DNA of 39,411 nucleotides, from positions 279,268 to 318,678 of the forward strand of contig NW_003124899.1 in assembly GCF_000003605.2 (NCBI RefSeq). The letters are read 5' to 3'. Under the pieces are notes generated by a model. That model had not been told where the DNA came from, searched no databases, and saw nothing but the letters and a program-made list of their open reading frames with translations. The stretch comes from Saccoglossus kowalevskii (lineage: Eukaryota; Hemichordata; Enteropneusta; Harrimaniidae). The position numbers were made by a program, and so were the translations under genes. The first letter of the stretch is position 1. Each line of letters opens with the position of its first letter. This document shows positions 39 through 38,187 of this stretch, piece after piece.

Positions 39-2065
<2,027 letters not shown>

Positions 2066-2272
2066 TTAGATCCGAGTGTCTTCAAATGAAGTATGGATTG
2101 GCGCAATCCAGATGTCTTCTAGCAAAATGTCAACTACTAACGAAAGGTCGTTTCGCGAAATATCCAGGTAATACGACGCACATGTTTTGCGTGGGTCGAA
2201 ATGTATCATACATCGCGACATTTGCCATATGCTCAACCCCTTGATAGGCAAAGGGGCTTCTGCAAGACCAAA
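2066..2272 (-). other. exon-like open frame, unrecognised
   Basis: A minus-strand open frame ends at 2066. Read towards its start it meets a plausible splice acceptor (TCTTGCAG, about 2265-2272), so it could be a terminal exon of about 65 codons containing the segment IHFDPRKTCASYYLDIS. It is richer in CpG than its surroundings. A second frame across the same DNA is also partly open and equally protein-like, which weakens the case. There is no family match I recognise, no neighbouring exon and no homologous copy in the window. It may be chance. Confidence 0.15.
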
Positions 2273-2467
2273 GTATCGAAATCATGCACGTTTGAATATG
2301 TAAACAAGTATTTAAAATTCAAACACGACTCTTGTGATATTGGTAATGCAAATATATCAGTGTGTATTCTTCAAACTGATGCGTTGGTCTTCTAGAAAAT
2401 ATCTAAGCCCATCATTTTTTTTACTCAACTGTTTTTCTGTGAAAAGATAGTTGTTTGCTATTTTTGA

Positions 2468-2514
2468 GAGGTGTTAGACCTCCTTTAACATTTGTAATTC
2501 TTTAGGAGGGGTCT
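2468..2514. other. small overlapping hairpins
   Basis: GAGGT (2468-2472) can pair with ACCTC (2478-2482). The overlapping AGACCTCCT (2476-2484) can instead pair with the AGGAGG/GGTCT stretch at 2504-2514, so the two stems exclude each other. In an animal genome no attenuator role is implied. Confidence 0.3.
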
Positions 2515-3429
2515 TGCATTTACAGTATTTAACTCATTTCACTATTTACATGCAATATTGTATGTGTTTCCAATAATTAATGTTATATTTAATTCTATAT
2601 ATGTTTTATGTTTATGATGAGCGTTGAATGATCTTCTCCTTCGTGAATCACAAGGAAAATATCACAATGATCTTTCATCGCAAAGACATGAAATTGTCCA
2701 ATAAAACAGGAGGAAATAACTGAATTTAAAACTGCATTATGTATGACAAAAATGAAAAAAAAAACAGTATATGATGATGGTATTCATAAGAGTCTTGAGG
2801 GCAGCATAACCTTTGAAAGAATGATGTAACCCACAGTAACTGTAGTAAAACTGCTGCTATATCCCTTACATAAAGCTATATTTATTTTTTATAAATCTCT
2901 AAAATACGGTAGAGATGGAGTATTGTGTATACAAATCCACGAATATATAACCCCTTATTTAGCTGGCATGTACAAATCTATGGTATTACTCCTGTATCAA
3001 ATGGCCTTTTCCAGAAATCTATGGGTATACAGCTCTTATATTACGCTGTATTTGTACAAATCCATGATAATACTTCCATTTTATATTTTCACTATATTAA
3101 TACCATGATACAGGAAATGTATTTTTCTCTTATTGAAGAATGCCATTACATTTGAATACAGTATGTGTTCACACTTTATTTGCATGAAAACATTGTAACA
3201 TTTCTTATTATTTCTGTGTATTTCCGTAATTAATCCAGTAGGTATTTTCGGCATTTTCTTGTATTGTCACAGTGTGTATTGCAGTCATATACAAGTTTAT
3301 TCGGACAGCGAGGCCCCATATCTTTGTTGATACTCTTGTTGCATTTTCTTAGTTGACTGTATTTTTGGTCGATGCAGCTTTGCAGGTTGTTCTACTTATC
3401 GTTGACCCTCTCCAGATTTACGTTCTTCG
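2515..3429. other. AT-rich DNA with faint internal repeats
   Basis: No gene is supported. A motif close to GTACAAATCCATG recurs at about 2930, 2970 and 3055, which gives two overlapping open frames (2923-3155) that look alike but have no coding signature. From 3325 onward there are degraded units of the minisatellite annotated next. Confidence 0.4.
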
Positions 3430-3534
3430 TTGATACTCTCACTGCACTTTTGTGATTGATACTCCCTGGTGTACTTTCTCGATTTATACTCCTGGTGTAC
3501 TTTCTCGATTGATACTCCTGGTGTACTTTCTCCG
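3430..3534. repeat. 26-27-bp minisatellite
   Basis: Four head-to-tail units start at 3430, 3456, 3483 and 3509 with the common core TTGATACTCCTGGTGTACT followed by TTCTCGA. The last two are nearly identical and the first is the most diverged. A more degraded unit starts near 3325, so the array was once longer and has decayed from its left side. Confidence 0.85.
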
Positions 3535-6338
3535 TTGTTAATCCGGTTGTTTTTGTATGTTATGATACTCCGTGTTGTATTATTTTTCTTGCAGAATTTG
3601 CACTATAATCGTAGTATTTATAGTATCAGATGATGATTTAGATTCAAAACACCTTCATCTTCATTTCATGGTGATATCATAAAGTAACACACAGTGTATC
3701 AATACAATTGCCTATAATAACTTATAAATATGATTGCGCAACACAATGATAAAAGAGATCGTAAAGAGATATAAAATCATAGCAGTCAACATGAATACCA
3801 CCTCTTCCGCTACTGTTTTTGTTTTAATCTTCAAAATTATTAAGATCCCCTCCAGTAAGAAATCGCTCATACGTATGTATACATGACAAGCTTAAGCGAT
3901 TTTGTTTATCAAGTATTAATATGGATGGGAGTTTAGAGTTTTATGTCGGCGACCCTGACCTAAATATAGCTTGCAGGAGAACGTTGTTCTGACACGCTGA
4001 TTCGTCTGTTGGCGCCAATGCAGCTTATCAAGTTTGTCTAATCTTATTGAGATATAAAGTAACAGTGAGAAGCGGCATGACATTTGTTTCTATAAAACGT
4101 GAAATGCAATTTTCTGCTACTCTGGTGTATCATTGCCACATGGTTCACGCAACAGAGATGTTCCATGCTATGTTGCGTTATTTCGATGTTACCATATGCG
4201 CCAATGACTTTCATTTTAAACATAAAGCTGTTCTATATATGAGCATAAAACAATATTATTTTAAGTAATCCTTCAGATGCTTACAGATTAGCATCTATTG
4301 AAGATTGCATAGTTTCTTCTGTGATTTGTCCAAATCCGTGCGCTTAAGATGAACTTATACATAGTCATATTTTTGTAAAACGTGTTCGATTAAAATAAAC
4401 CGAACAGTATCTGCCGCAGCACTCACTAACACATTGTGCTTTGATCTTCCAGAATATAGATTTCACTGGCCGACTTCCGGATATTTATCAAGTGTAGTAA
4501 TATTCTTAAGTTAATTCAGTGTAACCCACCTGTGATAACTTCAGTATATACGTGGATACGAGCAATGAAAACAAAGCCCCAACACGTGTTAACATTTACA
4601 TAACAAAATCAGTGGAATATTAATGACCAGTACACACCCCTGGGCTTGTTCACGTATTGTAAGTCACCCAAGCCTTTGTCAGATATTTTACTATACAAGC
4701 TCCAGTATTGTACCTAACGTTTTGTCAATGAATGTTTACTATATGTAGAAAAACATCTCTGAAAAACCACAGCAAATCATAAATATAGCATGAACACATT
4801 CACTAACGACAATTATGGAAACTAGAAATGAGTATATTATTCGAACGTTTTGTTTGATACTCCAGATTTTTCGCATTAGAAAATGTAAGATACAATGATT
4901 TCAGAATCTTAAATGAAATGTTAAAATAAAAGCTAATTCAAAGTAATAGCTGTATATATATCTAGACATGTAAACCAGTGTATTATTTAAGTAAGTAACA
5001 TTTACCGATGAAGTATTTACTTCTATGGTTACACTTTTACGAGGAAACTTCAATTACTATTGTAACAATGCAGTAAATACTAATGCTTGGCAGCAACATT
5101 CATGCAAAATAACGACCAAACTACCAGGTAATCACCACTCTGCAGAAAACATTGATTGCTTTCGATGGCACTCTTTTCCATGAGAGTTATGCGTAGTTAA
5201 CAAGACGCACATCAAAGAATACATTGATTGGATAAATTAATAGACAGACAGACGGACGTATATGTCTGTACCTTACACAAAACAGTTCTTACGTTACTTA
5301 ATCAGGTATAATTGCATCATTTTATTATGGTTCTTTACAATACATGAAAGTAAGCCTCCAAGGGAGTACAGACACAATGAAACCAATCTTCGCTTTCAGT
5401 TGAAATTGATATGGGATTCGTCTTGTCTGCTGACGTCAAAAGTACATATTACCATTATAATTTGTTGTTTTCAGGCTATATACTCCTCTAAAATAACTCG
5501 CCATTTGTTAAAACCTCTGAGTTATTCTGATGTTAAGATAATATTACTTCACATGCCCTTTTTTGTGGCTCAACCAAGCTTCAGCATTTGATGTATAATG
5601 TTTTCAAATATAAACAAATGAAATGGAAACGAGAAACACTTCTTGGTAAATACATTTATAGCAAAAACGTTTAAGAATCACGACAATAGTTGCAGTTTTC
5701 TGCTTTGATGTGAGAGACCACACAATGTTAATGAATTGAATTATGAATAAGACGCAATGAAATTGCGACATTGTGTGCATTATAACCTATCTTTTTACTG
5801 TGTGATTAATAAGAGTTAGACCAACCCTAATATGTAAAAATGTTCCATTGGGTTTTTAAAGGTTCGTTTTCCTTCGATCGTGAGATCACAGCTGCGTTTG
5901 TCACGCGATTAAAGCCAGAGTGCTAGAAGATCGTTGGAATCGAGAAATGTAACACATTGGAAAGGCTTATTTAACAGTATTAATCTACGTTGATATTATG
6001 TTGTTGTCATTAGAAAGTAATATTTGGTTGAATTGAGACATACCGGGGGAAATATTCAGTGTTTTGAATTAGAATGAAGTTTATGTTGTTGTGAATATCT
6101 AATAGATGCAGCACTGCCTAACATTGAATTCAAATTTCGTTTTTAAGCACTTCGAGTCTGTATACTGGTAAATGCTACCACTAATTGAAAATATATTATA
6201 TCTCTCACACAGGAAAGTGTTAGTGTGAAGCCAACACATAACAAATAAATAAAAGCAAATATAGATGTGAGAGTCGATTATTTCAAAACGAAATGCTCAA
6301 TACAAAGTATATGTGGAGCGGATATATACGGTTATAAA
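3535..6338. other. AT-rich DNA without recognisable feature
   Basis: No repeat pair, RNA gene or protein family is visible. The longest open frame is 109 codons at 5262-5591 on the plus strand. Its translation is hydrophobic and Ile/Leu-rich with no motif I recognise, and its length is within chance for DNA of this composition. A short run of GACA repeats sits at about 5243-5255. Confidence 0.45.
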
Positions 6339-6575
6339 GGAATTAATACACAACTACATGAATATTGAAACTCGACAGCACTGTTTCGTAAGGCACAAGC
6401 TCCTCACTCATCCGGAGCTTTATGTTTAATAATATAATATAAGTTGCAAAGTTTATAATGTATGCTCGTTGGCACAGTGAATTGATAAACATAAAGCTTC
6501 TGATGAGTGAGGTACTTGTACCTTAAGAAACAGTGCTGTTGAGTTTTAATATTCATGTAGTTGTGTATTAATTCC
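6339..6575. repeat. long inverted repeat (90-bp arms)
   Basis: The left arm 6339-6428 matches the reverse complement of the right arm 6486-6575 with 8 differences in 90 positions and no gap. The loop is 57 bases. Both arms begin with GGAATTAATACACAACTAC. Several mismatches become G-U pairs in a plus-strand transcript, so an RNA would fold into a long, almost unbroken hairpin. It may be a palindromic MITE or a hairpin-RNA precursor. No clear target duplication is seen at the flanks, and there is no second copy in this window. Confidence 0.93.
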
Positions 6576-9404
6576 TCTATTATACTGTATTGTCTCTCAT
6601 ATGATATATTCTACGTACTTACATTATGTATTCATTTCGCGTTTCCAGCTTAGCTGAGACTCACGACACAAACTAGACAGATTACACTGTATTTCTGAGT
6701 AATTCAATTGTTTTGAATTGTTGTGTTGGGAAGCGGTCGATGAATGTACGTCACCTCATTGCCGTTAGCAATCCTTCTCTTCGGTTCAAATTTATATTTT
6801 GATATCATTAATTTATTGAGACAAATTACGTTTCTTGAACACCTGTTCTTTTCACATTTCGTGAAGCCTTGTAAACAACGCCTCTACCAAGGATGGGATT
6901 TCATGTGAGTGAAATGTAGTACACTCGTAGCATTTTATACATGTCGCCAGATAACATGCCATTGATACCAACTTATATATAATCGAGTTATAATAATAAT
7001 AATATCTGTTATTGTTAGTGATAGTGTTTCCTAAAACCTATCCATTGCTGGAGTACAGCAGTCTTCATCGCGTATAAACTACATTTTTACGCTCACAAAA
7101 AAGATTACGTTTTCGGTAGCGTTGGTTTATTTGTTTGTCTGTTAGCTGTTAACTCAAATTGCAAGTGACATATTTTCGTGATTTTTACAGTAGTGATTTT
7201 CCTTTACACAAGGACGAATCCAATATATCTTAAAAGAAATTAATATTGGTACTGTTACTTAGAAACGGCAATTTCAGAAATGACGTGTTATGTATAACAC
7301 TGGCGATTTTTTATGAAGTTGTTAGAAAAGGGTTGCCCTTGGCATCCAATAATATATTAATGCATTGGTAAAAATGTGAATACAGTTGCCATGGCAAAAC
7401 GGTAATTTTGAGAATGTTTTTTCATCTATAACTCAAAAGGTTGGTATCTTAAGGCACCTAATCCATGGTATCTCAAAGGGATAACTTGACAGCCACGTGA
7501 CAAATCGGCATGTTCAGAATTGCCGTTTATGTCACGCTCGCGCAGGTTCAGAATACGGAAAGTTGATTCGGCAATAATAGTGCTAGCTGTAGACAATAAC
7601 TGCATGCATATAAACTCATGTTAGTGACCGTAGTTTCAATTACGGGACAGGGACGACCCGTAATTATAAATACACGTCCTGCTCATCCTTGGACACGTAC
7701 ACTGACTTATTATGGGTCATTATATGGCGTTCAAATATTAAAAAAGCTCCAAATCATATCCACGTCGATCCGGCATGTCTCATACTCGTGGATGTATTCA
7801 AAGTAACTCATACCTTTCGTTTTCTATTATTCAAATATAATTAAATCTATTTCTATACTTTCCAATTAAAAAGCCTAGTATCTATTTGTGGGAGCAATTT
7901 GTTTAAAAAAACGAACTTGCAAGATTAGGAATCATTGCAGACAGAGGGAAATACACTGTTGGTGCATGGCGGTGACTTCAAACGAAAACACTTAAATATA
8001 TCTCGCGGCTCTCTACGTGCATCCAAATAACGAGCACTATCTATGACGAGATTGAATGTAAAATTCTCTTACTTTGCATTCAGTAATGCGCACCGGGTTA
8101 TTCAATAGACTAATTTTTTCCTGTACTCACAAAATTACCTTTATACAATAAAAAAATGAGTCATTGTGGTAATACGCCCCCGCAATCTAGGTTTGGTTGT
8201 TTGTATATAGATACGCAGAATCCTAATTTAGTTTATGATGTTATTTCTTTTATCTCTCAAAGTCTCAGTTATCTTGTTTTACTCAATATAGGCCGCTGCT
8301 GCGTGTATTTACTGATCTAATTCGTATAACTGTCTCAAACCAATTTTAGCTTCTGTGTGAATAAGAAACAAACGAAGGAAATCGACTTACTGCTTTGATC
8401 TTACTCATACAGAAACATACTTACTACCTTTGGTAGTAAGCGGGCCTTTCCTTGTTATTCCGTCTGTTATGATTGTTGAACACAATAATGCCCTGGGCAC
8501 ATTCCTTGCTACTGTAACATACAGACACACAGTTATACTTTTTCCAGACACGCGTCATACAGAGATCACAAACACCCGACATACATTTGACTCAGTGAAC
8601 ATTTTGTTTATCAACAGATACATTGAATCTGTCAGTAGTTCAGTTTTGACAACTGCACATCTTCACAATACAATTCAATTACTCCTGCCAAATGTAAGTC
8701 GTTGTCAACTGTTATCTCGTTACTTACGCATACTCAAATCTAACTTGACTCAGATGTATTGATTACAAATGAAAATCGAATAAGAAGTATATCAACGAAG
8801 GTTGTTTTTATATAAAGACTCCAAATATATCTTTAGGAAAAAATACGTTGTGTGCTAAGGGAAATTATAAAGCCATACAAATAATTTGTTCGTATATGTA
8901 TATATAAGTAACGCTGATTTCATGAAGGTTTATACCGATATATCATCAGAGCTAAAACCGATGGATTACATAGGGGCGAGGTCTTTCATCAAAGTTGGCA
9001 AGTGAAGTACAAAATGTTAGTTTGGATTATTATGTACATTGGCAGGCCAGCTCGTTGAAATAGATCTTCCGGTGTCAATTTCCTATCTCGTTGTTATTCT
9101 CAAATCAACGAATACAGTTACAGAAACAGTATATTCATCTGAGAATAAATATAAAAGAATAATATATTCAGTGAAGTAAATTTACATAGCGCATCATAAA
9201 CAATTTCGTGGAATAACCAGTCAATATAGGCATTGTCAAAAATGCTATAGCACACTGAATGCGCTTTGAACATTGCAGTAAATATATTGGAACAAATTGG
9301 AACATGTATATATGCAAACTGCAATGTTTTGTACAAATGTTGACCACAATAACAAGGGCTATATTTTCTGTATGATATATTTTATGATAGCTTAATAATT
9401 ATAC
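6576..9404. other. AT-rich DNA without recognisable feature
   Basis: No transposon, RNA gene or repeat pair is visible. Open frames include 7618-7806 (62 codons) and 8430-8762 (110 codons, apparently starting on TTG), both on the plus strand. Neither shows a domain, signal peptide or repeat, and neither is supported as a gene. Confidence 0.45.
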
Positions 9405-9487
9405 GATTGGTCACCGATAGCAGATAATGGTTGCAACATCGGACTCATATGATCGGTGGAGCCGAGTTAAAATCCCACACATTGGGT
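9405..9487 (+). mobile_element. tRNA-derived SINE head (degenerate)
   Basis: The block reads like a decayed tRNA with a CAT anticodon. TAGCAGATAATGGTTGC corresponds to the D-arm and A box, CGGACTCATATGATCGG to the anticodon arm, and GAGTTAAAATCCC to the T arm and B box, in the right order and spacing. The anticodon-loop core CTCATA matches animal elongator tRNA-Met. The T stem no longer pairs and the acceptor stem is not convincing, so it is not a functional tRNA. A tRNA-derived SINE is the most economical reading; the CpG-rich sequence that follows could be its body. Confidence 0.45.
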
Positions 9488-9492
9488 TGAAC

Positions 9493-9622
9493 ATTAAAGG
9501 TCCGTGGTCGTCGCGACGCGTGTTGTTCGATTTAGACTCTTAGCGACGTATACAACGCGTGTGAAACACAATGTTTGCTCACATGAAATTCGAAAACGCG
9601 CTGCGAGACGACCACCGCGCTT
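9493..9622. repeat. CpG-rich imperfect inverted repeat
   Basis: CGTGGTCGTCGCGACGCGTG near 9493 is mirrored by the reverse complement of the stretch around 9598-9620 (CTGCGAGACGACCACCGCG). This gives an imperfect stem of roughly 28 bp enclosing about 75 bases. The density of CG dinucleotides is far above the neighbouring DNA, so this piece is either young or kept unmethylated. A minus-strand open frame (9748-9494, 84 codons) crosses it but has no motif I recognise. Confidence 0.6.
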
Positions 9623-10450
9623 TAAATAGTTTGAATAAGTTTCTCTGGTTCCCGTCGTCCCTTGCGAAGGGCAAGTAGGACACAGGTAATTAGTAATCGC
9701 CAAATTGCCAAAGGCACTTGACTGAATGACGTAATAATTTGAAAACATTCAAAGTTCTGTTCAACGTGTATGTACGCCGCGTCCATTCATTCCGCCAGTT
9801 TATACTTCATACTTGAGGTGCTTCTAGTCTTTTTCGCTATTTTTAGCCAAAGTGATAACAAACAAAACAATTTTATATTCGTGAAATCGAAAGAAAAACA
9901 TTGCTCTGAGATATATTTTGCTCAGAATCAACACACCAATCCCGCTCATCTCATATGTGAACTATAATAACGTGACTTGCGTTCTGTGGTTACGTCATTT
10001 CTATTTTTAGTAAATCGGCTGTCCATGGGCGCCGCCATTATGTTTGTTGCTTCATTCATGAACATCTTTAGATTGTTGTTTAATGATACGGACATCGTTT
10101 TTTGGCAACGGACTAAAAGTTGTTTAATTTTGAATAGTGTTTCGCGTTATTTTGATCAGCGGCGAAACACAAAATTTGCGTGCGTCTTGAATCCCGCTCA
10201 AATGTTCCAAATTCAAGCGCTTTGACGTTCTTTGCTTTCGTCAGTTCGATTTTAGTGGGTCAACAAATTGCACAGCTGCGCTCGCGCGCCAGGCATTGCC
10301 TGCTACTTATCATATCAAATCATACATATTCGAGACAAATTCAAAGTAAAAATAGAAGACAATTCGAAAACGCGGGTAAATGGGATTTGTGAGTTTGTAA
10401 TAGCAATGGCGGCAGTGTGACATCAAGTCCCCGTAATACTGTTTCCAGAC
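9623..10450. promoter_or_regulatory. CpG-richer region with GCCGCCAT / ATGGCGGC motifs
   Basis: The stretch has clusters of CG dinucleotides (for example CGCTCGCGCGCC near 10279) in otherwise CpG-poor DNA. It contains GCCGCCAT at about 10031-10038 and ATGGCGGC at about 10407-10414, cores shared with YY1-type promoter sites. The 13-mer ATTCGAAAACGCG occurs near 9590 and again near 10363. Overlapping short plus-strand frames (9977-10225, 10180-10392) are not convincing genes. A promoter, or the end of an old mobile element, would both fit. Confidence 0.3.
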
Positions 10451-10799: not shown

Positions 10800-12884
10800 C
10801 CATATTCGTATTATGAACATTATTGATCAACAACTAATGGTTAAATATCATTTGAATTCTTTGCTATGGTATTCCAGGTCTCAAAAAGTTCAATTTGCCT
10901 GGGATTAATGGCAATTAATGTTTATGTTCACCAAAGATGCTGTTTTGGCTTGATTGCTAGAGACACACCCGCCTCACTGTTGAGATGACTGTAGATCTTA
11001 TTTATCTGGTAGCATACATATATACAGATGACCACCGTATCATTCCCAAATTAAGTATAAGGGAATAAGACACTCTGGGCCTGTCATAAAAAGGCTCGTT
11101 TTAGCATAATTGCATGGGTGTGGTCATGGTTGCTCGGGTATGGTGTCATGCAAAATCAGTAAAAGTTTGTTGTGTTGTATTTTGTTGCAGATTTTTAAAA
11201 ATGAAATTAAATATTTAATAATTTAATTTGTTAAAATTGTTAGAGTACAATGACATTTTCTAATCATATTAAGTTCATAATATTTACCAGAATATGAAAT
11301 ACTATTTTTTTAATTTTTTTCATATTAGCACACGTCATTATTCAATACAGCTAATTTTATTCTAAACATCTTGATGTTTACACTAGTGCAGTATTGAACT
11401 TGATATTACTGGATCAGATTAAACTAAAAATATAGTACCCCGAAAAATATATTCAGTGTAATATCATGATTGATACTAATTTACTTCAAACCAGATCATA
11501 TTTACTTGTATGCATTTTATTTTCATTCTCATTTTATTAGCTTGAAGTGCAACATTTATGTAAAAATAATTTTCGTATTTTGAATACGATCACGTGCAAT
11601 ATTGTTACATTTCAACTTAGGTACGTCATAGGAAATGCAGTTATTGAACTAAAACAACAAATTTTTAAAATATAATTGGTGCCATATTTTGTTGGTCAAG
11701 AATGCCACGTATAATGTTTGTACTTATGCTTTATTATTATTTTCTTCACATTTCACAATACCCTTCCAGCAAAATGCAATGCATTTAATATTTTAAAACA
11801 AATAAATCAATCGCGGAAGTCATTAGAAGACTTGTCCTTTCCTTCATCTGAAGATTCAGTCCTAAAAAAAGTGATATTCAATTAATTTCGTGTGCCACAC
11901 TCATCCAATCTATAACTCACTTTTAATGACATTATTGGTATTTGTCATCAATCATACAATTGTTGATTGAAATGTAATTTAAAATACAAATTCTTAATCA
12001 ATAATATATACTATTTTTCAAAAATGGGTTTCACGTCAGGCATCTAATTTTACTTTTTGGTGGCATGTGTTGTTGTAGACGGGTATTTATTCGGAATTGT
12101 ATCACTGTGACAGTAAGGTACGTGTCTGTGTAAATTTTGATTCATTCAATGGCGTCGCATTTTGAATCCAAAATTTTGTTTTAAAATGGTGAAATTGGTC
12201 AAAAATCGGCACTTTAAAAGATGTAAAAATTGGTTCACCATTACACAATTCGGTATTTGGTCCGAAAAAGATTGAAAATTAAATATTCATATCTATCGGA
12301 AAAAAAATGAGCACAAATTTACCAAAGTTACTATAAAATATTATCTTTCTTTTTAAGATAATAAAAAACGATAATTTTAACAACAAATTATATTTCACTA
12401 CTTTAGTAGCGATAATCTAAAAAATGATAAATCTGAAAAAATATACATTTACTTTCAATTTTACAATAATTGTATACAGAACAAATTAAATTATGTTTTT
12501 TTCTATCCCAATACAATGAGACGGTCAGGAAAATGTGATAATATACAGCTCTCGTGAAGAAAAAGGCAGCAAAAATACAGTTTTGGTTTAATCATTATTT
12601 TTAAATTGCAAAGCTTGTAGTAGTAATTATGATTTAACTATTCTAAGGCATATCACTTTCTCTGTTGATATCTTTAAAAAAGAATATTTTATATGTAGCG
12701 CACAGATGCTAAATTAAACAGAATCCAAAGCATGGCTTTATGAATAAGACCGGTGTTATGTATGTTTTTTACATAACGTGTTGCATTAGATTCATTTGTA
12801 TATCGATCACTTTCACAGAGCATGACCATTGCCTGATTATATACACGTGTACCATTACGTAAGAAATGCACAGGCAGTATAATT
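10800..12884. other. very AT-rich DNA without recognisable feature
   Basis: Homopolymer-rich, low-complexity AT sequence, especially 11160-12500. There are no coding signals, paired repeats or RNA motifs that I can support. Confidence 0.5.
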
Positions 12885-16554: not shown

Positions 16555-18290
16555 GATCCAGTGGGGCAAGGAAAAGATTACGTCATCATAAGTCATAGCT
16601 AAATAGTATGTGGCGTGTTATGAGAGAACGAGGACGCTCTTACACTCGATTTGGCGGCTCTAAAAATATTAAAACGATAATACGTAATGATTTCAAAGCA
16701 CCGAGACGGGCATTTGACAACAAACTTCGGTGTTGCGAACGAAATTATAGAATCTATCTTGTTACTAGCATTGAAAGAGTATGTACTGAAAACCCACACC
16801 AATTGTGGGAGCATATAAATAAATTAGAGCCAGTCAAACGTACATATATCCCAATGGAAGTTTACGATGACGGCAGTCATATTACAAGTGATCATAACAT
16901 TGCTTTAAATAAGTGGAAACACGATTTTTCATCCCTTTATAATCACACTGATTTAAATGGATTTGACGCTAATTTCTACGAACATATTGTACATCATAAA
17001 TTGGTCCTAGAAAACGATTTGAATGATCCCTTGTATGATAGTAATTCTGAATTAAATAAGAATTTTTCTACTGTAGAAATTGAGTCAGTGATAGCAAAAG
17101 CAAAGTCAGGGAAGGCAGTTGAGGTAGATAAAATATCGTATGAAGTGCTTAAGAATGACAGTTCTTTTGCCATTTTAACACATCTTTTTCAACTTTGCTT
17201 TGACAGTGCAAAAGTTCCATGCATCTGGAAAAAGGCATTAATTTCTCCAATTCTGAAGGTGAGGTCGAGTGACCCTCGCGTTCCAAAGAATTGTAGGGGC
17301 ATGAGCATGCAGTCCACTTTATCAAAACTTTACAGCGCATTGCTTAATAGCTGAATCACAAGGTTTTTGGAAAATAATAATATTTTTGATGAGCAAAATG
17401 ATTTCAGAAAGGATAGAAATTGCGGAGATCATATTTATATTTTGACATCTATTATTAGGAATAGAATATCCCAACATGTGCCGCTTTCGTTGATTTACGA
17501 AAGGCGTTCGACATTGTCGATAGAGATGCGTTGTATAGCGACACAAATTCTTCTGTAAAACTAAATGATTTTAAAACAGACTGGTTTAACACCGGGCAAG
17601 GCTTGCGCCAGAGTGATAATCTTTCTCCTACGTTATTCTCCATCTTTATTAACAATTTGGCAGTTGAAATTAATCTGAAACAAAAAGGAATAACTCTTGA
17701 TAATAACGTTAATGTTAGTATTTTTTATACGCTAATGATATCGTGTTGTTAGCTGATAATGAAATTGATATGCAAATGATGTTAAGTCATTTAAATAGTT
17801 GATGTGAAAAGAAGCTAGAAGTGAAGCTAGAAGTGCATTCCAATTTTGTATTGGTGATGACGTGTTAGATTATACCGATACATATAAATATTTGGGGATG
17901 TTTTGGACGAATTTGTTGGTTATTCTGTAACTGCCAGTGTCGCAGTAGACTCGGCAAGTAGAGCGTTAGGAGCGTTATTCGTTAAACTTAAAACTCTCAA
18001 GAATCTTGGGTTTTCCACAAAGTGTATGATGCCAGTGTCGCGCCTGTACTCGATTATTGTTCCTGAGATTGGGGTTTCAGTAAATTTGAAAAGTGTGAAA
18101 TGATTCAAAATGGGACTTTAAGATTGTTTTTGGTACCCATAGGTTTTCCCCACTCCCGGCTGTTAAAGGTGACACTGGGTGGGTGTTTTTATACTAGGAG
18201 AGTAACACAGTTGGTCATTTGAAATAATTAAATGATTGGGTAATGAACATGCCATCAGTGGCAACCGTGACTTCTATCAACATATTATAA
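16555..18290 (+). pseudogene. LINE reverse transcriptase, frame-broken
   Basis: Continues the same element. The frame 16608-17354 contains AKSGKAVEVDKISYEVLKN and the WKKALISPILK...N-RGMS motif, and ends at a TGA (17352-17354) that interrupts an otherwise continuous frame and could be a decayed CGA. After a frameshift, FVDLRKAFDIVDRDALY (motif A, from 17486) is followed by a likely loss of 20-30 residues, then GLRQSDNLSPTLFSIFINN (motif B region). Motif C reads YANDIVLLADNE (from 17728), so YADD has become YAND and the catalytic pair is broken. KYLG and SRALGALFVKLK follow, then GTHRFSPLPAVKGDTGW near 18140. No poly-A or tandem tail is identifiable. The clade is not assigned. Confidence 0.88.
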
Positions 18291-35546: not shown

Positions 35547-35555
35547 TGAGCGGTC
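35547..35555. repeat. target-site duplication, left
   Basis: TGAGCGGTC here and TGAGCGGGC at 38179-38187 immediately flank the TIR element and agree at 8 of 9 positions. A 9-bp duplication is typical of Mutator-like elements and also occurs in some other cut-and-paste families such as Merlin. Confidence 0.75.
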
Positions 35556-35761
35556 CAATCTGATTAAAATGTAGGTACGGGGCTCCAATTTTTATTATTA
35601 TTATTTTTTATTTAACCCTTTATGTTATATTATATTTATTTGTATTTTAGTTTGAATATGTCGATTTTTTTTGTTTTTTCTTGCCGTTAATCAGTTCTTA
35701 GAAAATCGTGTCCCAGTCGCCTCTAACTACATCTGACTCAATGCCTATACAAATCTCGTAC
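35556..35761 (+). repeat. left terminal inverted repeat
   Basis: Pairs with 37981-38178. It begins CAATCTGATTAAAAT and ends AATCTCGTAC. The run 35693-35761 is identical to the complement of 37981-38049. Confidence 0.92.
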
Positions 35762-35781
35762 GAATCTCGCCCAGGGATCAT

Positions 35782-35835
35782 CCAATCAGATCACGGGTTA
35801 CAAACGCGCCTGAGCATGACTCAAAACATGGCGGC
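35782..35835 (+). promoter_or_regulatory. promoter-like motifs inside left TIR
   Basis: CCAATCA at 35782-35788 is followed by AACATGGCGGC (35825-35835), which fits the YY1 consensus found at animal transcription starts. A consensus splice donor GTAAGT lies downstream at 35926-35931, so a plus-strand transcript with a short first exon is plausible. The ATG in the motif opens a 24-codon frame that ends before the donor, so the first exon would be non-coding or carry only a small upstream ORF. Confidence 0.45.
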
Positions 35836-35931
35836 GTACGGCAGCTACTTTTGCATGAGCTGCACCTCATACAACTTATTAACAACGCAGTTTTTTCGAT
35901 GATGGATCGTTGTCTAAAATAACAAGTAAGT

Positions 35932-36998
35932 AGCATTCATTAACCAGTTTGGCCTTGGTTGTATTTCATTTCTGTTTGGTGGAAGATGAATTACATGTGC
36001 CAGTAATGTTGTTGTTTGCCTCTGCATCGGCGTCGGTGATCCGGTATCAACTTCAAGTCGTTTTATCCCAATCACGATCTTTACTTGAAAATTCCTTTTA
36101 GTCGATCGTTTCTAAACTAAGAATTCATGAAATATGATGCTTTTTCTACTGCTCCTGGTTGACAGATTATGTACTATAATTTTGTTCATACCAGTTCTGT
36201 TTTTTTTCTATCATTATTGATGACATCATTGTCCTTGTCTGTCTGATCAGAATTGATTCCATCTATTTTTAGTCAGTGTTTTTGATGCAAAATGTCTTAA
36301 TTTATATCTTTGGCCACACAAAGAAAAGATCCACCAGGTATCTTTAGTATCCATCAATTTGTTATTTAACTAAGATTCACAACAGGCATTTTGGAATAGT
36401 TGTGATATTTTGATAAACAGTACCATCACAATTAACTAATAGTAGATAGCCACATATCCCAGTTGACTTCGCAACAACAAAAAATGTAATTCTATAACTG
36501 TGATGAATAGCTGCCAAATACTTTTGTTATAAGAGTATTTTCAGTAAATTAGTGAATGACAAACGTATTTTCTTTGAGATATAAATATTTATTGATACTT
36601 AAATAAACCTTGTTCTGTCAATTGTCTTTTTCGAGCAGATGAACAGATGTAGTTCTTATGAAAACAGCTGGAAAATAAATTAATGGCTTAATATACCAAG
36701 ATGTCACTTATTTAGGTGATGTGGTTTATTGCTCTTCATGTGATGTCTTCACTTGATGCAAAATCTTCAAATAAATTAACCCTTACACATACTGTTACAT
36801 TTATTATATAATTTTGTAATTTACATGATAAAACAAGACTGCTGAGAAGGTTCATTAGCTCTACCACCTCAACCCGACGCCTGTATTATAACTTTCAATA
36901 TCGAAAAAGAGTACATGAGTACCTGAGTTGTTTTGATAAAAATGGCCATACCAAAGGCTGTGTGGCAAAATATTAATCTCAAATTTTAGTTGGACACT
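35932..36998. other. transposon interior without readable gene
   Basis: AT-rich sequence between the left promoter-like region and the minus-strand frame. I find no transposase signature on either strand. Confidence 0.45.
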
Positions 36999-37331
36999 TC
37001 AGCTATTTCTTTTGGATGCGATTCTTGTACAATACTGCCAGTTTCCCCCTTTGAAATAATGATAAAGAGCTAGGGAACAATAAATATTTGTCTGTGGGAA
37101 AGTATTTTTCTCTTCTCTTAGTTTGTCAACCATCCAATAAAATATGGATGCACAGTCCCACTGAATCTTTACGACTGACAATCCAATGTTCCCTATTTGG
37201 GCAAATGTTCACAGTCTTGCAATCTCGAATAATGTAATGAGGCTGTCTTTCAACTGGGACTGTAGACTTTGAGGCAGTTGTAACAAAATTTCTTGAATGC
37301 ACTTTGTTGTGTCTTGCGCCTGCTTTTTTAG
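36999..37331 (-). pseudogene. candidate second exon of the TIR-element gene, one in-frame stop
   Basis: After an AG at 37333-37332 the minus strand reads, in the same phase as exon 1, LKKQAQDTTKCIQEILLQLP, then SQLKDSLITLFEIARL, a TGA (37211-37209), and on in frame to VKIQWDCASIFYWMVDKLRE and YHYFKGGNWQYC before a stop at 36999. The long amphipathic stretches look like real protein. A competing frame (37338-37126) starts with ATG and reads MTAKKAGARHNKVHS, but is less protein-like. I recognise neither. If the first reading is right, the TGA makes this copy defective. Confidence 0.35.
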
Positions 37332-37815
37332 CTGTCATCTAGTTTTTCACCCCTACAAAAAAAATCACAGAAATTATCATTTGAAGGTAAACGTGTACAA
37401 GTTAGGACTCCAAATCTAATTATTTCCAGATTTTGAAAAAACAAAATTCTCTAATAAAACATGCACACTGGAATTTTGTTAGAATGAGCACTTTTATAAT
37501 GAATTGCCCAAATGAACCAACACAGCTCTGTACACATGCAGTAGTGGGGGAATATGTTTACCATAGACTCACAAAAACATTGCCTGGTCGTAATGCATTA
37601 ACTCATAATGCAATAGTTAGATCGTGATGACTGTATCAGTATAAAGTCGAGACAACATGCACGTATGGCTTATATTGCATCAAATGTGACTAGCTAACAT
37701 GATCGAGTAATACAAGGTCATCAAAGTTGAAATCTGAATTATCTCCAATTACACACATCAAACGTGATTTCTCACAAAAGATAATTAAGTTTTTGTAAAA
37801 GTGACTAAAACTCAC

Positions 37816-37872
37816 CTCAAATTCGGAATCCTCTAATGATTTTACATCCGTTCTAACATTACTTGCAACCAT
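37816..37872 (-). CDS. candidate first coding exon of the TIR-element gene
   Basis: ATG at 37872 in the context TTCAAGATGG begins MVASNVRTDVKSLEDSEFE, 19 codons, and ends at GAG followed by a consensus donor GTGAGT (37815-37810), in phase 0. Upstream on the minus strand, and before the TIR, lie GCGCATGC and CCAATCA promoter-like motifs. It is most likely the start of the element's own gene, probably a transposase, but 19 residues are too few to name it. The intron to the candidate second exon would be about 480 bp. Confidence 0.4.
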
Positions 37873-37900
37873 CTTGAAATAACCAGGAACGATGATTCTG

Positions 37901-37951
37901 GCGCATGCACAAAGTCAGAGCCTATTTTTGTAAGCCGCACTATGATTGGTC
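37901..37951 (-). promoter_or_regulatory. promoter-like motifs inside right TIR
   Basis: On the minus strand CCAATCA (complement of about 37943-37949) is followed towards the ATG by GTGCATGCGC (37910-37901), close to the NRF1 site. Both lie between the right TIR and the ATG at 37872, mirroring the CCAATCA beside the left TIR. Confidence 0.45.
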
Positions 37952-37980
37952 GACAAAACTCGTCGAAAACTGATCTTGTT

Positions 37981-38178
37981 GTACGAGATTTGTATAGGCA
38001 TTGAGTCAGATGTAGTTAGAGGCGACTGGGACACGATTTTCTAAGAACTGGTTAACGGCAAGAAAAACCAAAAAATGACATATTCAAAGTAAAATACTAA
38101 GTATAATATAAATGGTTATTAAAAGAAAAAAGAAAAAAAATTGGAGCCTCATACCTACATCGGATTTTAATCAGATTG
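37981..38178 (-). repeat. right terminal inverted repeat
   Basis: Reverse complement of 35556-35761, with poly-A where the left copy has poly-T. It is 8 bp shorter because of length changes in the homopolymer stretch. It ends CAGATTG. Confidence 0.92.
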
Positions 38179-38187
38179 TGAGCGGGC
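38179..38187. repeat. target-site duplication, right
   Basis: TGAGCGGGC; see the left copy at 35547-35555. Confidence 0.75.

Follow-up and report, generated by a model that had tools for sequence, protein, structure and literature searches.

Within the window, i.e., the whole stretch of 39,411 nucleotides of the Saccoglossus kowalevskii genome that was analysed, a transposon of approximately 2.6 kb occupies positions 35556-38178. It is a real, well-bounded copy that is non-autonomous, deleted and decaying. Its features are listed below, where positions in the C14 element refer to an 11.8-kb full-length relative on contig C14 of the same genome.

35547..35555, left target-site duplication TGAGCGGTC, 8/9 identical to 38179-38187
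35556..35761, plus strand, left terminal inverted repeat (TIR)
35782..35788, plus strand, presumed inward CCAAT box (CCAATCA) on the putative transposase side; CCAATC in 9/12 elements with the left start found
35828..35925, plus strand, remnant start of the plus-strand gene, ATGGCGGCG..; donor-like GTAAGT from 35926; end colinear with C14 element 1-637
36168..36169, deletion junction; a block of ~330-400 bp (~570 in L009) found in 11 aligned loci is absent here
36561..36630, block colinear with C14 element 8387-8456
36716..37419, minus strand, RecQ-like helicase remnant broken by frame changes and stops, colinear with C14 element 8787-9638
37556..37557, second deletion junction; ~500 bp found in 8 aligned loci are absent here
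37816..37872, minus strand, remnant of helicase exon 1, MVASNVRTDVKSLEDSEFE, with a donor-like GTGAG at 37811-37815; exon limits placed by eye
37901..37910, minus strand, presumed NRF1-like site; exact GCGCATGCGC in 6/13 elements with the right start found, absent from the window
37943..37949, minus strand, presumed inward CCAAT box (CCAATCA) on the helicase side; in 11/13 elements with the right start found
37981..38178, minus strand, right TIR
38179..38187, right target-site duplication TGAGCGGGC, 8/9 identical to the left flank

Inverted arms at 35667-35761/37981-38075 (95 nt, 98%), 35569-35611/38118-38160 (81%) and 35556-35570/38164-38178 (100%) together constitute one TIR pair of approximately 200 bp with the tips CAATCTG/CAGATTG (tip sequence CAATCTGATTAAAAT). 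In agreement with an initial annotation of this DNA, which had described a well-bounded TIR transposon flanked by a 9-bp target-site duplication (TSD) matching at 8 of 9 positions, these TIRs, the same count of matches between TGAGCGGTC and TGAGCGGGC and the existence of other copies all bear out the element as such. Searches of the window for Rfam families and tRNAs returned no match.

Copies sharing these tips, as predicted by the annotation, are abundant in the same genome (572 Mb, 4830 contigs). Matches to the window element amount to at least 143 pieces, derived from 40 scored of 203 candidates, and the tip pattern, at up to two mismatches, is present 422 times in forward and 417 times in reverse orientation (839 genome-wide). 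Since the reversed control gave no match in either orientation, these tips are not due to chance. With a longer tip of the window type and up to three mismatches, 72 and 80 matches were obtained, again with none in the control. Among the matches listed for the tip pattern at up to two mismatches, at least 18 inward pairs are 0.9-2.3 kb apart, many of them about 1.3 kb, in addition to single pairs spaced by 265 bp and 11.8 kb; the matches listed for the longer tip include at least 10 inward pairs 167-379 bp apart plus one of 565 bp. The short tip pairs, known mostly by their spacing alone, look like deletion derivatives and MITEs. Very short pairs, e.g., C1753:8347-8513 and C3044:178074-178250, apparently are MITEs with little beyond the two TIRs. 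Elements sharing the tips thus form a size series of 11.8 kb, 2.2-3.8 kb (where gap-free), 1.3 kb and 0.2-0.6 kb.

Both ends were readable in 15 copies, comprising 10 of 20 fetched regions as well as L007, the window, C14, L035 and L046; the remaining 10 fetched regions, in which a tip was missing or the second end unreadable, were not counted. The TSD is 9 bp long in 11 of these copies, perfect in eight and matching at 8/9 positions in three (window, L011, L023), and 10 bp long and perfect in the other four (L009, L012, L025, L046). All 15 TSD sequences differ from one another. The expectation that the copies end in CAATCTG/CAGATTG holds exactly for 12 of the 15, which were found partly by these tips, but one or two letters are changed in one tip of L014, L023 and L025.

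The relative on contig C14 (C14:262794-274593) has the same tips, contains no N and is flanked on both sides by the perfect 9-bp TSD CATTCCGCT. It is the sole long copy that was read, with exons unjoined, and eight unspliced frames of at least 90 aa were compared with Pfam. On the plus strand, one frame matched DUF6589 (PF20231) above the cut-off (2.3e-7) and another matched it weakly (0.044), and the minus strand gave DEAD (1.1e-10) and Helicase_C (2.4e-14) matches. Apart from DUF6589, C2H2 and helicase domains, the scan yielded a few weak others; transposase domains of the P, hAT and Merlin type were not among the matches of these eight frames, nor was the MULE domain PF10551. Judged by eye from its motifs, the minus-strand gene appears to be RecQ-like. 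The two genes are convergent, each starting at an inner TIR edge. In the plus-strand gene, GDN, GGDRLT and an E-bearing stretch follow each other in this order; GDN and the E-bearing stretch align with a second DUF6589 family, and GGD.LT is also found at two further DUF6589 loci, L049 and L050. These motifs may represent the D, D and E of a DDE transposase, and the DUF6589 gene probably encodes such an enzyme. Genome-wide, DUF6589 gave 16 matches, 12 of them above the cut-off. A 225-aa frame of the C14 element has 10 matches on six contigs, one being itself and the next best being 70% identical with an internal stop, so that few transposase sources are seen for the many short copies.

The window element is colinear with the C14 element at 1-637, 8387-8456, 8787-9638 and 11191-11800, and hence retains only the start of each gene together with a broken scrap of the helicase; no working gene was seen in this copy. 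What the initial annotation had regarded as a minus-strand gene to be compared with transposases turned out to be this helicase remnant, given its colinearity with the C14 element, its frame changes and its stops. The larger size of the first missing block in L009 is owed to an extra insert. Reading the two blocks as insertions in the other copies was rejected, since their sequence is common to those copies and absent in the window copy; parts of both are also lost from some other copies. Most of C14 element 801-8335 is missing from the other short copies, and a block near 6910-6952 is kept in 7 of 18 rows compared. Among the frames listed for the interior of short copies, none that is gap-free exceeds approximately 150 aa, and short peptides from the copies matched nothing in Pfam (four peptides) or PDB.

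As proposed earlier, CCAATCA is present just inside each TIR and faces inward. On the plus strand (35782-35788) it is followed by ATGGCGGC at 35828, and on the minus strand (37943-37949) by GCGCATGC-type sequence (37901-37910) and then by ATGGTTGC from 37872. We take CCAATCA to be a CCAAT box, the plus-strand start ATGGCGGCG to be YY1-like and minus-strand 37901-37910 to be NRF1-like. The right CCAATCA is missing from C14 and L019. Of 23 elements, 12 have an ATGGCGG start close to their left end, the 1.3-kb relative L035 included, and 13 have an ATGG(C/T)TG start close to their right end; the misses include ends that were unread, deleted, badly bounded or changed. The left start of the C14 element reads ATGTCAGCG. 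In L035, the left inner edge carries TGACGTCA and AAAATGGCGGA, followed by a donor-like GTAAGT. The colinearity with the C14 element identifies the inward CCAAT boxes and starts of the window copy as remnants of the two gene starts of its parent, an arrangement that resembles MuDR. Among nine short copies, the gene-start stretches diverge by 0.111 (left) and 0.075 (right) vs. 0.084 in the interior; they are kept no better than the interior and therefore give no clear sign of selection. Two convergent transcripts, as envisaged by the initial annotation, fit the parent with its two convergent genes but are hypothetical for the window copy.

With regard to the TIRs, it had been claimed that their inner 69 bp are identical and their outer parts diverged, in a manner suggestive of constraint or conversion at the inner end. 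The identical run measures 70 bp, and the two arms differ at 12 of 103 compared sites in the outer part vs. 1 of 82 in the inner part (p = 0.007). Eight of the 12 outer differences fall into an AT-rich tract, however, and significance is lost when the tract is left out (4/71 vs. 1/82, p = 0.18). In a comparison of 10 elements, from which L007 with its replaced left end was dropped, the inner TIRs differ by 0.075 within an element, about as much as between elements (0.079 for left vs. left, 0.099 for right vs. right), and the partner of a TIR in the same element is its nearest relative in only 3 of 20 cases. In a segment comparison of nine copies, without the badly bounded L019 and without L023, inner-TIR divergence is the lowest among 11 segments on the left (0.067) and among the higher ones on the right (0.103). 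Points in favour of constraint or conversion are this low left value, the outer excess in the window as long as the tract is included, and the AT-rich middle of the TIR, for which the difference within elements (0.174) is smaller than that between them (0.322 and 0.226; 10 elements). Overall, decay of the inner TIR in the copies compared is similar to that of the remaining element, and special constraint or conversion is unsupported. The simplest reading of the outer excess in the window, which resides in the AT-rich tract, is slippage of that tract, a 5-bp deletion close to the left tip and little time. In the C14 element, the TIRs differ at 1 of 184 compared sites, so that homogenisation of the whole TIR, or youth, is possible there.

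Descriptions of Academ transposons assign TSDs of 9 or 10 bp to AcademH and of 3 or 4 bp to AcademX, tie these lengths to the encoded helicase and nuclease, and characterize the full AcademH element by such a TSD together with a helicase (PMC10045372); Academ is reported to be expanded in bivalves (PMC10294476). In our set, all 15 copies have TSDs of 9 or 10 bp, and the full-length C14 element carries a superfamily-II (RecQ-like) helicase on its minus strand (DEAD, Helicase_C). AcademH thus fits both TSD and helicase, and the superfamilies named in the initial annotation (Mutator-like, Merlin, P, hAT) are not favoured. The two genes of the C14 element converge from the TIR edges. We infer that DUF6589 is the Academ transposase; in the literature searched, no paper joining DUF6589 and transposase was found.

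Membership in the Mutator-like elements (MULEs) would likewise explain a 9-bp TSD, TIRs of ~200 bp and convergent TIR-promoted genes as in maize MuDR, and MULE domains (PF10551) do occur at 12 places in this genome. A TSD of 9-11 bp and long TIRs are present here but are shared with AcademH and hence not decisive. We consider this assignment improbable, as the MULE domain is absent from the eight C14 frames scanned and the tips were found near only one of eight fetched MULE places (8 of 12, with 1.5 kb added on each side), where a nested 1.3-kb relative interrupts the MULE gene; MuDR is not known to have a RecQ helicase as partner. The likeness to maize MuDR comprises the long TIRs, the 9-11-bp TSD of the superfamily and two convergent genes driven by TIR promoters (PMC3310237), and the difference lies in the genes themselves, MURA and MURB there vs. 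DUF6589 and a RecQ-like helicase here. The only tip-bearing place among the eight is the target of the nested insertion, and Mutator as owner of the tips was accordingly rejected. This insertion (L035 1800-3110, contig C3234) has the same tips and a perfect 9-bp TSD, GTGGCGTCG. Its flanks, compared separately with the seven other MULE places, gave no nucleotide match; at the protein level, only L032 has both sides, the left reaching 1788 and the right beginning at 1783, which weakly suggests that L032 might be an uninterrupted relative with a single copy of the L035 duplicate.

A Pack-type origin, in which the TIRs would have captured promoters and first exons from host genes, could account for the two short initial exons and their housekeeping-type motifs, and Pack-TIRs are known in animals (PMC8277862). 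Both ends align colinearly with genes of the 11.8-kb element, and of 27 matches to the helicase-side peptide, 24 overlap element pieces, one (C1119) is 1.9 kb away from such a piece and two (C1492, C4350) are on contigs that hold element blocks. No separate host donor is therefore seen, and such a capture is very improbable. Least credible of all, to the point of being negligible, is a RecQ-bearing Kolobok element, either KolobokH or Kolobok-1_CCri, the latter with its RecQ on the complementary strand. A RecQ helicase beside a DDE transposase is known from this group, but its TSDs are described as TTAA of 4 bp, or as 3-5 bp in the KolobokP lineage, and its ends as RR..YY (PMC9587614). None of the 15 copies has a 4-bp TTAA duplication; all show varied 9-10-bp TSDs, and most have C..G ends.

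The window element is therefore very probably non-autonomous and derived, by internal deletion, from a DNA transposon of the AcademH type; it would have been inserted by transposase acting in trans and has since decayed. The parent would have carried a convergent pair, a plus-strand DUF6589 gene (the probable DDE transposase) and a minus-strand RecQ-like helicase gene, starting at the inner TIR edges, and the helicase may have taken part in transposition. Loss of most of the ~7.5-kb middle would have given rise to short copies that retained both ends and measure 2.2-3.8 kb where gap-free; two further pieces are gone from the window copy. Transposase supplied in trans would have acted on the TIRs and left the 9-bp duplication upon insertion, and the inserted copy would have decayed afterwards.

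Going further, the putative TIR-edge promoters from which the two genes converge in this AcademH lineage (CCAAT box, then a start codon within ATGGC(G/T)G) might form a matched pair; the many short copies keeping both could then produce convergent RNA and silence their own family, which would parallel MuDR in a non-plant host. This reading is conceivable but rather unlikely. The CCAAT-then-start layout recurs in L050 on contig C3659, a distant pair of DUF6589 and helicase genes, at whose helicase start CCAATCAG lies upstream of ACATGGCGG. Here, a DUF6589 gene (1.9e-11, 1e-7) faces a RecQ-like helicase on the other strand (DEAD 2.2e-20, Helicase_C 5.2e-16) that is 33% identical to the C14 helicase over 292 aligned positions; the gene order of the C14 element is repeated in this pair, which speaks for the AcademH-type derivation. 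This gene pair occupies L050 1015-8877, and a 587-aa frame with repeated VQPDVGPVSQST-like units was noted there. DUF6589 frames are also present in L049, read over 9.1 kb of its 11.6-kb contig, with no helicase among its frames of at least 110 aa. A CAATCTG tip pair or a gene-bounding TIR pair was found neither in L049 nor within the 10 kb read of L050.

A previously unclassified 2.6-kb repeat can now very probably be traced to deletion in a helicase-bearing DNA transposon; a full-length relative is present in the same genome. This adds a case of a helicase-bearing transposon with MuDR-like convergent genes, together with a size series sharing tips; the window element itself is real but largely ordinary and by itself opens no new question. 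Elsewhere in the window, a 251-aa open frame at 16599-17354 resembles by eye a fragment of a LINE-type reverse transcriptase, without a Pfam match. An inverted repeat at 6334-6580 (100-nt arms, 89% complementary, 47 nt apart) is possibly a small fold-back element, and a 26-bp unit is present in three tandem copies at 3454-3532.
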